NCBI GenBank assembly: GCA_003963305.1
Contig: RXJR01000028.1
Location: forward strand, 186,001 to 250,000
DNA length: 64,000 nucleotides
From: Candidatus Melainabacteria bacterium
GTDB taxonomy: Bacteria; Cyanobacteriota; Vampirovibrionia; Obscuribacterales; Obscuribacteraceae
Direction: 5' to 3'
The translations under genes were made by a program, and so were the position numbers. The stretch's first letter is position 1; each line of letters begins with the position of its first letter. Under the pieces are notes generated by a model, which saw only the letters and a list, made by a program, of their open reading frames with translations, searched no databases and was not told the DNA's origin. This document shows, in pieces, positions 22,136 to 36,275 of the stretch.

Positions 22136-23008
22136 ATGAAATTACTTCTATCAATAGACAATTCGGAACATTCGCAAGTCGCCATTGAGGACGTGTCACA
22201 CGGACTTTGGCCGGACGGCACCGAAGTTATGATCGCAACGGCGGTCTGGTCTCCTTTCGGTTTCGTTGGTTCGAAAGAACACTCCAACGAAGCAGCTCAA
22301 AAATTATTGAACGATGCTGCTGAGATTATTCGAAGCAATCAATATATAACGAAGGTAGAAACACAGATACTGGCAGGAAATCCAAAGAATGAAATCATTG
22401 GGGTGCTCGCCGAGAAACACTTCGACCTGCTCGTAATGGGTTCGCGTCGCCCGTCGATGCAAAAAATACTTTTTGGCAGCGTCTCTCATGCCTTGCTGCT
22501 TGGCTCACCTTGTTCGGTGCGCATAGCCCGACGCGCCATTGTCAGAAAAAAGCGTCGCGTGCTTGTCGGATTTGACGGCTCGGAATTTTGCTGGCGAGCA
22601 CTGTCCATAGTGGCTGGTCGCCATGTACCAGACGGCACCGAAATATTTATTGTCAATGCGGTGCCGACTGTTGACGAAAGTGCTTATGATAACCCTCATG
22701 TTTTTTCGCAAGAACAGCTCGAACAAGGGCGCAGCCGTTTGTTGGATGTTGCTCAAGACGGGTTGGCCGAGGCCAAAGCTAAACTCTCTGCTCAGTTACC
22801 TCACTGTATCGTCAACACTAAGATTCTCAACGGTCATCCACGAAAAGCGCTAATTGCAGCGTGCGAAGACTTCGATGCCGACATCATTTTTGTTGGCACC
22901 CAGGGCCGAAATTTTTCCGCTCTCATTGCAATTGGCAGCGTGTCGGAAGCCGTAGCAGTTGGGGCACCATGTACCGTCGAAATTATCAAAACACCAAATG
23001 CTTCCTGA
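22136..23008 (+). CDS. tandem-domain universal stress protein (UspA family)
   Basis: 290 residues with two Usp domains (about 1-137 and 138-288). The second retains the ATP-binding signature G-2X-G-9X-G-S exactly (GTQG, nine residues, GS). The first is degenerate (GSRR, eight residues, GS), so only the second is expected to bind nucleotide well. Both begin with the typical LLSIDNSEHS and VLVGFDGSEFC strand-loop. Such proteins help survival under starvation, acid or oxidative stress and are cytoplasmic. The start is ATG 22136. It precedes the SbtA-like pair by 53 bp on the same strand and could share their transcript. Confidence 0.92.
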   Translation: MKLLLSIDNSEHSQVAIEDVSHGLWPDGTEVMIATAVWSPFGFVGSKEHSNEAAQKLLNDAAEIIRSNQYITKVETQILAGNPKNEIIGVLAEKHFDLLVMGSRRPSMQKILFGSVSHALLLGSPCSVRIARRAIVRKKRRVLVGFDGSEFCWRALSIVAGRHVPDGTEIFIVNAVPTVDESAYDNPHVFSQEQLEQGRSRLLDVAQDGLAEAKAKLSAQLPHCIVNTKILNGHPRKALIAACEDFDADIIFVGTQGRNFSALIAIGSVSEAVAVGAPCTVEIIKTPNAS

Positions 23009-23061: not shown

Positions 23062-24786
23062 ATGCTTCCCTTCGGTAATCTAATCAGGCGATTGAATTTC
23101 GAATCAAATTTCGCACGCCTTTCAGCCTGTTTTCTCACACTGATTTGCATGGTGTGCATAGGAAAAGGAGTGATAGCTTATGCAGCCAGCGATTCACAAG
23201 CAGCCGACGCGACTGCAGCCTCGTCGCATGCGAACGCGGGAGAGACACCACCGCCAGAGAAAGGCAAGCTGACGGATTTCTCCGACGGCGAACCAACTAT
23301 AAATTTGACCGGCGAGAGCGAATCAGACAATCAGAAATATCGATTGCCAAAAGATGTAGCTGTAGAAATCAACGGCTTGCCCTCTAAGCTTTCCGACCTG
23401 AAGCATGGCGATGAGTGCACAGTCACCAGAGACGCCAGTGGAAATGTCACCAAAATCACAGTAACAAGAACTACCTCTGGCATAATCGTGGACTCCACGC
23501 CAAACTCCCTGGTGCTTTCCTCTGACATGGTGAAAAAGGAAACGTATCAGATGGCGCCTGGAGCCAGGGTGCTGGCAGACGGCAAGCCTGCTTCGCTCGA
23601 TTCGCTAGTCAAAGGCGACGACGTGACCTTGCTTCTCGACAATAACCAAAACATTCTCAAGGTCGAATCGATACACTTCAGTCTGTTCGCCAAGTTCTGG
23701 AATAACTTCCGTTCGAACCTATTCAAGCCGCTTCTGCTTTTCTTCTATGTCGGATTTTGCATTCCGCTTCTGCGCGTCGCCTTTGACTTTCCAAAGGCAA
23801 TCTATCAGGGTCTGACGATTTACTTGCTCGTATCAATCGGCTGGCACGGCGGAGAAGAGCTTGCCATGCTGAGCAGCAAGTCCTTTAATCAAGCCTTTGC
23901 ATTCATGATTGTCGGATTCTTGACCAACGCAGTCATTGCGCTTCTTGCATACGGCATGCTGCGGCTTTTCGTCCCGAAATTGCGCAAAGTCGATGCAGCT
24001 ACAGTGGCCGCCTATTACGGTTCTGACTCAGCAGGAACATTCGTCACATGTCTGGGCGTATTGCAGGCTGCTCACATCGCCGCTGCCGCTTATATGCCGG
24101 TAATGCTGGCGATCATGGAAATTCCAGGATGTCTTGTCGGGCTTCTGCTGGTCAACCAGTTGCGCTTAAAAGGCATGGATCGTCGCGGAAACATGCCGGA
24201 TGAACCAAACTACAAACCGCGAACAGACGAAGAGCAAGCTTCAGCTAAAAAGCAGAAGTGGGGTCATGTTTTCCACGAGATCTTCTTTAATCCTGGATCT
24301 TTCCTGCTTTTTGGCGGCATTTTTATCGGCTATGTAAGCCGATTACAAGGTCTGAAAGTGGTTCAACAAGACGACGCAGTTTTCATCTCACTCTTCCAGG
24401 GTTTCCTTTGCTTGTTCCTGCTCGAGATGGGCATGACCGCATCGCGACGTCTGGCCGACTTGCGATCAGTAAACTGGACGTTCATTGCCTTCGGGCTCGT
24501 CGCACCGAACATCTTTGCTATCTTCGGAATGGCTGTGGCGCAGCTTCTCAGTCACGCACTGCACCAGCCCTTCCAACTTGGCACCTATACGTTGTTCGCC
24601 GTGCTCTGCGCTGCGGCGTCATACATTGCTGTTCCCGCCGTGCAACGACTGGCAATTCCCGAAGCGAGTCCATCACTTCCACTGGCAGCCAGTCTCGGTC
24701 TGACATTTTCCTACAACGTAACTGTTGGAATTCCGCTCTACATGCTGATTGCGCAAATTCTGATGCGCCAATTCCCGGTTAGTTAA
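23062..24786 (+). CDS. sbtA: SbtA-family bicarbonate transporter fused to signal peptide and duplicated extracytoplasmic domain (copy 1)
   Basis: 574 residues from ATG 23062 (a TTG at 23038 is open). Residues 1-42 form a signal peptide. About 95-205 carry two copies of a module with the pattern NG-x-P-(S/A)-(K/S)-L-x-(D/S)-L-x-x-G-D, a beta-rich domain of unknown role. The core from about 210 to 574 (365 residues) aligns by eye with cyanobacterial SbtA, a sodium-dependent bicarbonate importer of about 374 residues: VDAATVAAYYGSDSAGTFVT, PVMLAIMEIPGCLVG, LLEMGMTASRRLADLR and IPEASPSLPLAASLGL occupy the places of SbtA's family motifs. The cytoplasmic central loop is short. Its paralogue follows 227 bp downstream. 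No SbtB-type PII regulator gene is near. Transport of bicarbonate itself is inference; another anion is possible. Confidence 0.85.
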   Translation: MLPFGNLIRRLNFESNFARLSACFLTLICMVCIGKGVIAYAASDSQAADATAASSHANAGETPPPEKGKLTDFSDGEPTINLTGESESDNQKYRLPKDVAVEINGLPSKLSDLKHGDECTVTRDASGNVTKITVTRTTSGIIVDSTPNSLVLSSDMVKKETYQMAPGARVLADGKPASLDSLVKGDDVTLLLDNNQNILKVESIHFSLFAKFWNNFRSNLFKPLLLFFYVGFCIPLLRVAFDFPKAIYQGLTIYLLVSIGWHGGEELAMLSSKSFNQAFAFMIVGFLTNAVIALLAYGMLRLFVPKLRKVDAATVAAYYGSDSAGTFVTCLGVLQAAHIAAAAYMPVMLAIMEIPGCLVGLLLVNQLRLKGMDRRGNMPDEPNYKPRTDEEQASAKKQKWGHVFHEIFFNPGSFLLFGGIFIGYVSRLQGLKVVQQDDAVFISLFQGFLCLFLLEMGMTASRRLADLRSVNWTFIAFGLVAPNIFAIFGMAVAQLLSHALHQPFQLGTYTLFAVLCAAASYIAVPAVQRLAIPEASPSLPLAASLGLTFSYNVTVGIPLYMLIAQILMRQFPVS

Positions 24787-25013
24787 GCAGATTTCCACTT
24801 TCTTGACACAGGAATAATCTTTACGACCTGCTGCAAAGAAGGCAGGTTGAACTAATATTGTGCTAACTCCGAGACTTCGCTGAGTGTAATTTTGAGCGAA
24901 TTCCTCACCGTCACTCAATCAAGATCATTTCGCAGCAGCAAGTGTGCATCGACCTGCGTCAAGCTTTTTGGATTATCGCATCCGCCTTTTGCCAGATTCG
25001 TTCTGGAGGTCAA

Positions 25014-27020
25014 ATGAGTTTCATTAGCCGCTCAAAATTTCTACTTTTATCGGTGTTTTTACTGACCCTGCCCCTCGTTCAAGAAGCACATGCTGCCAAA
25101 AGTCCAAACCAATACGACAGCGACCTGATTGTGCAAGACAGGGTCGTAGCTAAGCCTTACGGTGCTTCGTCGATGAACGCCAGGCTGGAACACGCAACCG
25201 AAGGAGCGGCACACCTGACTCTGGCTCCTGCTTCACCGGAAGAGAAAGCCCAGGAAATTTCGCTCAAGCCTGACACAAGAATCACACTGAATGGTGCTCT
25301 CGCTGCGGTATCTGATTTGAAGTCGGGAGACGCTCTGGAACTTATAAACGATTCTGACGGCAAGGTAACCGAAGTCAAAGCAATTCGAGCGATATCGGCG
25401 ATCGTAGTAAACAGTAACAGTAACGATCTCAAATGCACGAGCGACTATCTCGACAAATTCTCTTTCGCAGTTGGAAATGACACTTCGGTCATGATAAATG
25501 GCTTACCTGCCAGCCTGGCTGATCTTAAAATCGGAGACCAGGCCACGGTGGTGGCAAGCCAAAATGGCACAGCAAAGACAATAACAGTTGTGCGCAAAAC
25601 TCTTATCGAAAGTTTCTGGGACAACTTTCGCACGAATCTGTTCAAACCTCTACTTCTATTTTTCTATTTGGGCTTTGCAATCGCGCTCCTGAAGATAGCC
25701 TTTGAATTTCCTCAGCCTGTTTATCAAGGACTGACAATATACCTGTTGCTGGCGATTGGGTGGAACGGCGGTGAGGAACTGGCGGCGCTTAGTGGTGGTA
25801 CGATGGCGCAAGCAGTAAGTTTTATGGTGATTGGGTTCATAACAAACGCTGTTGTAACTGTTGCTGCCTACTTCATCCTGCGGGCAATAATTCCGAAGAT
25901 GCGTCGCATAGACTCAGCCACGGTAGCAGCATTTTACGGTTCCGATTCAGCAGGTACATTTGTCACGTGCCTGGGAGTGCTGCAAGCGGCGCACATCGCT
26001 TTCGCTGCTTACATGCCGGTGATGTTGGCTGTTATGGAAATTCCAGGATGTCTTGTCGGGCTGTACATAGTCTCGAAATTGCGCAAAGGATACATGGATG
26101 CCCACGGCAATATGCCGGGTGAATATGGTTACGACTCCGATGCCATGCCTGAAAGTCACACTGAAAGCGCTGCCACGATAGGAGGACATAGTGCGTCTAT
26201 CGACGACACTGTTCGTCCGCAAATTGCCGGCGCAACCGCGCTCGTATCAAAAGAATTAGTTGGAGCAGGATTCAGAAGCGGAAGTGCACTCGGAGTCGGT
26301 GTCGGTATCAGAAGCGAAGGTGCAAGCGGAGTTGGAATAGCAAGCGAAGTCGTGAACGGTTCTAGTGCTCGTGCAAATTCTCTATCAAGACGCAGCGGTG
26401 ATGACTACGCGGCACCAGCAAGTTTCAGATCGCGAAGAAGAGATGGCATGCCCCTGTCAGTAAGCCCATTGAGCAACTACGACCCCAATCCATCCCTCGT
26501 ACTCAGAGAAGTTTTTCTCAACCCGGGAATCGCTCTATTATTCGGCGGCATCATAATCGGCTTCCTGAGCCGCAGCCAGGGTTACACAGTCGCTCAGCCC
26601 AGTGACCAACTTTTTGTCAATCTATTTCAAGGTATGCTCTGCCTCTTCTTACTCGAGATGGGCATGACGGCTGCCAGAAGACTGCAAGACTTGAGAAACG
26701 CGAACTGGCGCTTTGTGCTTTTCGGCTTAATAGCACCAAATGTATTCGCCATTGCTGGGATGTGCATCGCGAGCCTGTTCAGTCATGTCGCCAACCAACC
26801 GCTCCAGCTCGGCACATACGTCTTGTTTGCTGTGCTATGTGGATCAGCATCCTATATTGCCTTGCCGGCAATTCAACGACTGGCCATTCCTGAATCGAGC
26901 CCCACATTGCCCCTGGCTGCATCACTGGGTCTGACCTTTTCGTACAACGTAACGATTGGCATACCGATTTATCTGATGATCGCTCAGGAGTTGCTTAAGG
27001 CGTTTCCCGTAAGCATTTAA
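25014..27020 (+). CDS. sbtA: SbtA-family transporter fused to extracytoplasmic domain (copy 2, with Gly/Ser-rich loop)
   Basis: 668 residues from ATG 25014, which has a strong GGAGG five bases upstream (the frame opens at GTG 24942). A signal peptide covers about 1-27. Two NG-type modules lie at about 85-195 (GALAAVSDLKSGD and NGLPASLADLKIGD), and the SbtA-like core follows from about 200. It is clearly paralogous to the gene before it, with identical stretches such as SATVAAFYGSDSAGTFVTCL-type residues and a shared run at DNA level around 26040. The difference is a roughly 130-residue central loop, Gly/Ser/Val-rich and then Arg/Ser-rich, where copy 1 has about 45 residues. In SbtA this loop is cytoplasmic. 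The gene converges on the next one with a 1 bp gap. Confidence 0.85.
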   Translation: MSFISRSKFLLLSVFLLTLPLVQEAHAAKSPNQYDSDLIVQDRVVAKPYGASSMNARLEHATEGAAHLTLAPASPEEKAQEISLKPDTRITLNGALAAVSDLKSGDALELINDSDGKVTEVKAIRAISAIVVNSNSNDLKCTSDYLDKFSFAVGNDTSVMINGLPASLADLKIGDQATVVASQNGTAKTITVVRKTLIESFWDNFRTNLFKPLLLFFYLGFAIALLKIAFEFPQPVYQGLTIYLLLAIGWNGGEELAALSGGTMAQAVSFMVIGFITNAVVTVAAYFILRAIIPKMRRIDSATVAAFYGSDSAGTFVTCLGVLQAAHIAFAAYMPVMLAVMEIPGCLVGLYIVSKLRKGYMDAHGNMPGEYGYDSDAMPESHTESAATIGGHSASIDDTVRPQIAGATALVSKELVGAGFRSGSALGVGVGIRSEGASGVGIASEVVNGSSARANSLSRRSGDDYAAPASFRSRRRDGMPLSVSPLSNYDPNPSLVLREVFLNPGIALLFGGIIIGFLSRSQGYTVAQPSDQLFVNLFQGMLCLFLLEMGMTAARRLQDLRNANWRFVLFGLIAPNVFAIAGMCIASLFSHVANQPLQLGTYVLFAVLCGSASYIALPAIQRLAIPESSPTLPLAASLGLTFSYNVTIGIPIYLMIAQELLKAFPVSI

Positions 27021-34158: not shown

Positions 34159-34872
34159 ATGAACTTGAGAGAACTAATTGACAATCCCATCGGCGACCAA
34201 ACTACGACTATGGTGTACATACTTTTAGCAGAAGACGATCAGTTTTTGTCCGATGGGTTATCGAGAACTCTTCGTCACAACGGCTACAAAATCGATCAAG
34301 CACACAATGGTTTAGACGCTGAAGCAGCCATGTTAGCCAACCAATATGACCTCGTCATTCTAGATCTTGGTTTGCCCGATATGGACGGGTTGACTCTGCT
34401 TGCAAATTTACGGCGAGAGGGAAAAGCACTACCTGTTCTAATTCTTACCGCACGAGACGCGCCCAACGATCGGATACGCGGGCTCGACCTGGGTGCGAAC
34501 GACTATCTGTGCAAACCGTTCAACATGGGAGAACTGGAAGCAAGAATTCGCGCACTTCTGCGCAAAGAGAAGTGGGGCAATCGTATGGCAATAAGAGTTG
34601 GCTCCCTGCTATTCGATACTCATGCGAATAAATTTTTCATTGATGAACAGCCACTGGAGCTCTCCTCTCGTGAGTTTCTCGTTCTAGAGATGCTCCTGCA
34701 GCGCAAAGGACGTGTGGTTATGAAAACAGACTTGATTGAGCATCTAAGTAATCTGGAGAAAGATATGACCACGAATGCTCTCGACATAGTCATTCACCGG
34801 TTGCGAAAGAAGATTGATGATTCAGGCTGCATTATTCAAACCGTCAAAGGACTCGGATTTATTATTGAATAA
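34159..34872 (+). CDS. OmpR/PhoB-family response regulator
   Basis: 237 residues: a receiver domain (acidic pair D26-D27, phosphoacceptor D69 in LDLGLPDMDG, T97, K119) followed by a winged-helix DNA-binding domain (SSREFLVLEML, NALDIVIHRLRKKI, TVKGLGFIIE). Phosphorylation by its partner kinase should switch DNA binding. ATG 34159 is preceded by AGAG four bases away; ATG 34210 would trim 17 residues to the usual family start but lacks a ribosome binding site. Two bases separate its stop from the histidine kinase gene, so these form a two-gene operon. Confidence 0.93.
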   Translation: MNLRELIDNPIGDQTTTMVYILLAEDDQFLSDGLSRTLRHNGYKIDQAHNGLDAEAAMLANQYDLVILDLGLPDMDGLTLLANLRREGKALPVLILTARDAPNDRIRGLDLGANDYLCKPFNMGELEARIRALLRKEKWGNRMAIRVGSLLFDTHANKFFIDEQPLELSSREFLVLEMLLQRKGRVVMKTDLIEHLSNLEKDMTTNALDIVIHRLRKKIDDSGCIIQTVKGLGFIIE

Positions 34873-34874
34873 CG

Positions 34875-36275
34875 ATGCGAAAGCCTGCCTCTATCCGTCG
34901 GCAATTACTTTTGTGGCTTTTAATTCCACTCCTCAGTCTGGCCATCGTAAGCAGTATCGTTGCTAATTTCCTCGGTTTGCAATTAGCCCGAAACATTTAT
35001 GACAAACAGCTGCTCAATTCGGCCGACTCAGTAGTGGCTCGAATAAAAATACACGATGGCAACTTGACCGTCGATCTCCCACCTGCCGCCCTGGCAATCT
35101 TACGACACAACAATCGTGACGACTTTTCATTCCAGGTGCTTTCGCCAGACGGAAAAAACATCTCGGGAGATCCACGACTTCCGGCTCCAGAGGCAGCGGA
35201 TACAAACACAGCGGAACCGACATTCAGAACTGTACAAATTAAAGGCAAACAGATGCGCGTGGTTTGCTTCTCTATGCCGACTCCCGATTTTCAATTCGAT
35301 CATGTCATCGTGCAAGCGGCGGAAACGCGGAATACTCGCACAGAATTAGCCGGGCAAATCACAATGAGCATTTTGTTTGCTCAACTGCTGCTAATTATTA
35401 GTGGTGCCGCCTCGATCTGGTTCGGTGTGAAACGCGGTCTGCTACCGCTAATGCGAGTTGAGAAAGCAGTGGAGGCAAGAGGACCAAGCGATTTCAGCCC
35501 GATAGATGTAGAGGAACCAGTCGAAATCAACTCGCTCATCAAAGCATTGAATCGCATGTTCAAACAGCTGAAAGACGACCGGGACATGCAAGAGAGATTC
35601 ATTTCCAATGCCGCCCACCAGTTACGCACACCGCTTGCGGTGCTTGGGACCTATTGCGATCTGGCCAGAAAGACAACCAGTGATCTATCTATCCACAGCG
35701 TGCTGGATGACCTGGATGCGGGGGTGAATCGCATGAGTAAACTAGTGAACCGACTGCTGTCCCTGGCTCGCTCTGAACCTCATGTTGCCGCAACACGCAC
35801 GAGCACAGTTTTCGATTTAAACACATCCGCTTCGGTAATGTCGGCAGCACATGTACCACAGGCGTTGAAAAAGAAAATCGATATCGAGTTTCTGTCAGCC
35901 AAAGATCCGGCGCTTGTCTACGGCGATCCCAATGCTATAGACGAACTGATAGCGAACTTGATTGAAAACGCGGTTATCTATGGACCACCCGGCGGCAACG
36001 TAACAGTAAAAGTCATAAATGAAGAGGGACATGCTTCCGTGCTTGTTGAAGACGATGGACCTGGAATTCCGCCGGAAGAAAGAGGTCGCGTCTTCGAACG
36101 CTTCTATCGCATGCCAGGCACTGACAAGCCCGGCACGGGACTTGGTCTTGCGATCGTACGTGAAATAGCAGCCAGTCACAATGCACTTGTTGACATAACC
36201 ACTGGTCCTGCCTCTAAAGGCACTTGCATTCGAGTTGACTTCCCAGAGATCGTCACTAACGGCAAACACCGATAA
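34875..36275 (+). CDS. sensor histidine kinase (QseC/TctE-like)
   Basis: 466 residues, partner of the preceding regulator. Membrane segments at about 10-35 and 163-185 enclose an extracytoplasmic sensor of about 125 residues. A HAMP linker follows, then the dimerisation helix with the phosphoacceptor histidine H248 (SNAAHQLRTPLAVL), the N box (NLIENAVIYGPPGG), the G1 box (DDGPGIPPEE), the F box (FERFYR) and the G2 box (GTGLGLAIV). All elements needed for autophosphorylation are intact. The stimulus cannot be read from sequence; the sensor shows no PAS or Cache motif that I recognise. Confidence 0.94.
   Translation: MRKPASIRRQLLLWLLIPLLSLAIVSSIVANFLGLQLARNIYDKQLLNSADSVVARIKIHDGNLTVDLPPAALAILRHNNRDDFSFQVLSPDGKNISGDPRLPAPEAADTNTAEPTFRTVQIKGKQMRVVCFSMPTPDFQFDHVIVQAAETRNTRTELAGQITMSILFAQLLLIISGAASIWFGVKRGLLPLMRVEKAVEARGPSDFSPIDVEEPVEINSLIKALNRMFKQLKDDRDMQERFISNAAHQLRTPLAVLGTYCDLARKTTSDLSIHSVLDDLDAGVNRMSKLVNRLLSLARSEPHVAATRTSTVFDLNTSASVMSAAHVPQALKKKIDIEFLSAKDPALVYGDPNAIDELIANLIENAVIYGPPGGNVTVKVINEEGHASVLVEDDGPGIPPEERGRVFERFYRMPGTDKPGTGLGLAIVREIAASHNALVDITTGPASKGTCIRVDFPEIVTNGKHR

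Follow-up and report, generated by a model that had tools for sequence, protein, structure and literature searches.

Two adjacent SbtA-superfamily transporters with predicted exported OB-type modules in a Candidatus Melainabacteria genome

We analysed a 64,000-nucleotide stretch of contig RXJR01000028.1 (positions 186,001 to 250,000 of the forward strand; hereafter the window) from the Candidatus Melainabacteria bacterium assembly GCA_003963305.1. Two adjacent genes on its plus strand, A (23062..24786, 574 aa) and B (25014..27020, 668 aa), each combine a signal peptide, two modules of predicted OB type and an SbtA-type core in one protein, as judged from open reading frame (ORF) translation, profile matches and start analysis and, for A, from a structural model. 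The core belongs to a third PF05982 clade beside SbtA1 and SbtA2 and is not classical SbtA (SbtA1). We propose, with a probability of about 0.5, that A and B are bicarbonate-type elevator transporters supplying carboxylation, with the OB barrels as an outer accessory crown.

The host is a non-photosynthetic relative of Cyanobacteria, as an earlier note on this DNA had supposed. That note had also held a carbon-uptake transporter in such a host to be of interest in itself, an argument that is weak because SbtA-like proteins are already known in many heterotrophs (PMC10117731). No paper describing a signal peptide, OB modules and an SbtA-type core in one protein was found in a literature search of incomplete coverage. 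Among the main candidates for raising the carbon uptake of crop plants is SbtA, which also serves as a model of a regulated elevator transporter; a natural SbtB-less form, with two, one or no outer modules in close relatives, offers a comparison set for the effect of an outer domain. In addition, "SbtA" annotations outside photosynthetic cyanobacteria can conceal this third clade, whose substrate is presumed.

The transporter core and its clade

The profile Sbt_1 (PF05982) covered 308 of 308 positions in both proteins, scoring about 325-327 bits for A and about 312-313 for B against a cut-off of 27. The matched cores span 23728..24756 in A (10 transmembrane segments (TM), 326.9 bits) and 25647..26987 in B (312.2 bits, with a long central loop). 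The model of A, built from a 26-sequence alignment with a predicted local distance difference test score (pLDDT) of 75, showed the 5+5 fold of SbtA: its core matched the SbtA structures 8zor (Z 39.1, 326 residues, 2.6 Å) and 7cye (Z 36.2), while the next-best folds, of the LYCHOS/PIN type, reached Z scores near 20-23. The SbtA-type core read by the earlier note was thus borne out. An NCBIfam match to V-ATPase subunit C was rejected because its 22.8 bits fell short of the cut-off (61).

The identity with classical SbtA was not upheld. Nine positions of Synechocystis SbtA have been assigned to ions (F110, G111, A112, A320 and S322) or bicarbonate (S114, Y140, S324 and S327) (PMC8352866). Only three of the nine are kept in A (G111, S114 and S324, the last two corresponding to S323 and S520 of A when numbered from ATG 23062), B additionally keeping S322, and in A Y140 is replaced by Leu, S327 by Ala and the neighbouring D325 by Tyr. 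Since the Na+ contacts are made by the main chain, side-chain change alone does not exclude the use of Na+. The pattern of a short cyanobacterial type (L062-type rows) was matched at eight of the nine positions in A and at all nine in B. We infer that this short type is SbtA2, because it has an adjacent PII-like gene and is found in a range of cyanobacterial groups, some with genomes as small as 1.6-1.9 Mb; an SbtA2 with an SbtB2 partner has been described (PMC13249358). In a tree, SbtA1, SbtA2 and the window's clade each formed a group with full support, the window's clade being split at 100/100 from 12 SbtA1 rows, Synechocystis SbtA among them, and likewise at 100/100 from the short cyanobacterial SbtA2.

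SbtA1 (Synechocystis Slr1512; PDB 7cye, 7cyf, 7egk, 7egl and 8zor) thus shares with A and B the PF05982 core, the 10 TM and the 5+5 inverted repeat, but is only 23-26% identical to them. Its TM4 motif FGAVSGST and TM9 motif SSSDISGPP become YGSDSAGTF and ASYIAVPA in the window's proteins, which, unlike SbtA1, lack SbtB and carry OB modules predicted to be exported. SbtA2 (about 330 aa, with SbtB2 as partner) has the same TM9 ASYIAVPA and agrees at eight to nine of the nine ion and substrate positions, whereas A and B have a longer core, a longer central loop, OB modules and no SbtB2. The core-only members of the clade, from Mycolicibacter/Mycobacterium, Nitrosomonas marina and Planctomycetota, have the same motifs and, over the best segment, are about 52-67% identical, but they lack modules and have either no signal peptide or the signal segment only.

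Modules predicted to be exported: fold, distribution and evolution

The signal peptide of A (23062..23187) has its hydrophobic stretch at residues 20-38, where hydropathy peaks at 2.16, within a predicted helix (residues 16-41), and ends in AYA-ASD; that of B (25014..25097) has its hydrophobic maximum at residues 4-22 and an AHA-AKS end. Each protein then carries two modules of about 70 residues, four in total, which agrees with the exported two-module region proposed earlier. Those of A lie at 23266..23472 (85.6 bits with a module profile; an OB-type barrel in the model) and 23476..23679 (81.1 bits, likewise modelled), and those of B at 25182..25391 (73.4 bits) and 25398..25598 (80.7 bits). 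Across the 7.5-Mb genome the profile, whose building set included these four modules, found exactly four copies, all in A and B (E 1e-23 to 8e-20). The signal peptide, a positive-inside count of 19 Lys/Arg in predicted inner loops versus 4 in outer ones, and the finding by others that the N-terminus of SbtA is external (PMC13249358) suggest an N-out arrangement, in keeping with the geometry that the earlier note had thought possible, and as a matter of geometry the barrels would therefore lie outside the membrane.

Modelled from a six-sequence alignment (pLDDT 88.9), the module region was predicted to form two beta barrels in tandem. Searches with Foldseek and VIA-align 2 listed OB-type folds, cold-shock proteins included; the best match was an S-layer self-assembly domain (9fs9; Z 9.2, 2.0 Å, 67 residues), followed by periplasmic CusF (Z 7.4) and PilY2 (Z 6.7). 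As Z scores of 7-9 are only slightly above the background stated for the tool, the predicted modules are placed in the OB fold class and kinship to the matched proteins is not claimed. Like one module, these three are exported single OB-type barrels; they differ in having no transporter attached, and at 10-16% identity no sequence-level relationship to the modules was found. The earlier note had named DUF5666- or OB-type folds: the OB type stands as a prediction, whereas DUF5666 (PF18914) gave no match at A or B up to an E of 10 and none in Pfam scans. Sequence searches of Pfam, NCBIfam and PDB returned only weak, scattered matches (LysM_OapA, Hint_2, AbrB and cold-shock). LysM_OapA (PF04225) gave weak matches to five of six members, with E no better than 1.6e-5; the score of the first was 21.6 against a gathering cut-off of 22.3 over only profile positions 31-69 of 85. 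A CusF-like metal chaperone was also considered; the fold is CusF-like, but inspection of the alignment found no conserved His/Met/Trp set, and this role was rejected on that ground.

The same fusion was then sought in relatives. PF05982 genes were present in 13 of 53 Obscuribacterales genomes and the window's clade in 12 of the 53, clade and modules being assigned there by eye from reading frames. The two-module form accounts for nine genes in eight of these 12 (G000, the window's own genome, with two genes, and G001, G008, G009, G015, G421, G432 and G434), including six genomes beyond the window's genus; the other four (G013, G426, G427 and G429) lack modules and carry a hydrophobic segment at the N-terminus. 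The thirteenth genome, G016, has a short SbtA2-type gene. In this Obscuribacteraceae genome the gene (L008, L144; C593:2852-3891) is cut by the contig end and adjoins an SbtB2-like PII gene, and its relatives differ. Outside the order, the two-module form was found in two Planctomycetota-labelled metagenome-assembled genomes (MAGs) of a named genome collection (L010 and L011), the one-module form in one Isosphaeraceae MAG and in Paludisphaera soli, and the core only in Mycolicibacter/Mycobacterium, Nitrosomonas marina and other Planctomycetota. Mis-binning of L010 is unlikely, its tetranucleotide usage fitting L015, on a second contig of its own MAG (0.96), better than any Obscuribacterales locus. 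Among relatives the modules were present, reduced or absent and were not found as separate proteins, an outcome that would have spoken against the fusion. In a 386-genome sample of the phylum, in which the window's family is otherwise represented scarcely or not at all, the two-module region occurred only in this genome. Because the fusion recurs in six further Obscuribacterales genomes and two Planctomycetota MAGs, it is a real, conserved architecture and not a product of chance or of assembly.

Purifying selection acts on the modules. A comparison of A with L009, its nearest relative, gave 69% identity in the modules and 92% in the core; in the modules the proportion of non-synonymous differences (pN) was 0.17 and that of synonymous differences (pS) 0.79, which is saturated, and in modules and core alike non-synonymous change was far below this saturated synonymous change. 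With the tree rooted on SbtA2, the two-module proteins formed a basal grade and module number (two, one or none) required at least five changes, a count that does not separate gain from loss and comes from a sample, gathered with A peptides, that favours near relatives. An ancestral fusion followed by repeated loss would suit these data. A and B are 67% identical in the core and 29% in the modules, and in the tree A groups with L009 and B with L004 and L115. These identities and separate groupings rule out a recent tandem duplication; either the duplication is old or one of the two genes was acquired separately.

Substrate and role of the modules

In the mechanism that we propose, A and B would each be a secondary transporter, presumably trimeric, that imports a small anion, bicarbonate being the most likely one, by an elevator mechanism. 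The signal peptide would export the two barrels, which would remain attached to the gate (scaffold) domain through TM1, giving a trimer six barrels on its outer face. Lying outside the transport path, they would most probably serve as a dispensable crown, either a scaffold for the trimer or the envelope or a dock for an extracytoplasmic partner; this role is suggested by their faster evolution relative to the core and by the existence of the transporter without modules in relatives. Bicarbonate is the likeliest substrate because A and B have SbtA2-like ion and substrate positions and because a review reports chloride-dependent bicarbonate uptake by SbtA2 of marine Synechococcus when tested in E. 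coli (PMC13249358). Rubisco was undetected in all 12 clade genomes (a cyanobacterial control was positive), and ordinary carboxylases would for this reason be the bicarbonate sink, in a heterotrophic carboxylation. Three beta-carbonic anhydrases are encoded in this genome. An adjacent UspA-type protein may act as a cytoplasmic regulator.

Several observations weigh against this proposal. No transport assay of any member of the window's clade was found in the literature consulted, and the published bicarbonate residues Tyr140 and Ser327 are replaced by Leu and Ala. In one study neither a Labrenzia SbtA-like protein nor Prochlorococcus SbtA took up bicarbonate (PMC4275256). The module fold rests on six aligned sequences, with Z scores of 7-9 that barely exceed the tool's background; the clade is spread patchily through Obscuribacterales, and the Usp neighbour is missing in eight of the 12 clade genomes.

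The replaced residues, together with the change of Asp325 to Tyr, could mean that A and B carry another small anion or solute, and some relatives do adjoin nitrate/sirohaem-type genes or an ArsR-type regulator. The same residues, however, occur in SbtA2-type proteins reported to transport bicarbonate, a SulP transporter (the family of BicA) lies nearby in some Mycolicibacter, and neighbourhoods vary among lineages with none being decisive; another substrate is thus rather unlikely. Ligand binding is common among OB folds. This general property, the direct outer-face link between the modules and TM1 of the gate domain, and the lack of SbtB in the genome would all suit an extracytoplasmic sensor or gate controlling the transporter in place of cytoplasmic SbtB, as the earlier note had suggested. 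The absence of SbtB, which that note had reported near the genes, extended beyond the locus: an SbtB/SbtB2 profile found none in the genome (best E 0.42), while controls G072, G078, G148 and G016 were positive, and the single PII gene is GlnB-type and stands beside amtB. Conversely, in the Obscuribacterales genomes with the signal-only form no SbtB adjoins the transporter either, so that the presence of modules does not go along with SbtB loss, and several relatives keep the transporter with fewer modules or none. Moreover, no conserved ligand-type residue set stands out in the module alignment, whose invariant positions are a turn-type NG and GD with isolated D/R. We therefore regard a sensor role as improbable. 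A fuller version, in which six trimer-borne barrels respond to a signal from outside and thereby gate the uptake of bicarbonate in an outside-controlled third clade while the UspA-type protein replaces SbtB inside, seems to us very improbable.

The modules might instead be a functionless leftover or export aid, the signal peptide assisting N-out insertion and the barrels being tolerated; module number varies across the clade, and the extra N-terminal hydrophobic segment stays in module-less Obscuribacterales lineages. Against this stand the purifying selection on the modules, the retention of fold-type residues across large divergence and the presence of modules in both tandem copies, which make it distinctly improbable. 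The accessory crown on a bicarbonate-type transporter accordingly remains our preferred reading.

Gene layout and neighbourhood

The starts at ATG 23062 and ATG 25014 are likely to be the true ones. For A this start is favoured because it is conserved in L009, and for B because a Shine-Dalgarno-like GGAGGT (25005..25010, plus strand) precedes the ATG by 3 nt. B differs from A in an expanded low-complexity loop, predicted to be cytoplasmic, between TM5 and TM6 (26076..26501; 142 aa versus 38 aa), which is rich in Ser and Gly. Long central loops also occur in the L004, L007/L046 and L115 translations, with little evident similarity among them.

Directly before the pair, on the same strand and 53 nt upstream of A, lies a tandem universal stress protein (UspA-type) gene (22136..23008; PF00582, 129 bits in two stretches). 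A Usp gene adjoins the transporter on the same strand in four of the 12 genomes, from three genera: the window's, G001 and G008, where it is upstream, and G009, where a single-domain form is downstream. The G001 arrangement is shared with the window by descent, so that there are at most three separate cases. With about 29 Usp ORFs in this genome, the chance of finding one directly upstream was roughly estimated at 0.4%; that transporter operons contain Usp proteins has been noted, though not characterised, before (PMC10710835). Elsewhere in the genome, at G000:C23:161655-222145, many Usp genes are clustered, one end of the cluster being occupied by a beta-carbonic anhydrase. Weaker PII-like genes were seen in three other Obscuribacterales genomes, on contigs apart from the transporter.

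Among more distant relatives, an ArsR-type regulator gene stands directly upstream of both Planctomycetota two-module transporters (L010:5447-5797 and L011:5567-5935), ending at or just before the transporter start. In some Mycolicibacter (L019, L021, L022 and L026) a divergent SulP-family transporter is found close to the core-only gene, as are NarK-like and CbiX-like genes, these two named by eye from sequence. Further Mycolicibacter species (e.g. L031) have a small DUF732 gene downstream of the core-only gene; it was considered as a mycobacterial SbtB candidate and rejected, being DUF732 and not PII-like. Two-component genes (response regulator and histidine kinase) were found near the transporter at L015, L052, L053, L018, L055 and L093, which belong to several Planctomycetota, Nitrosomonas marina and G008, and homologues of this pair are present in the window at 34159-36275.

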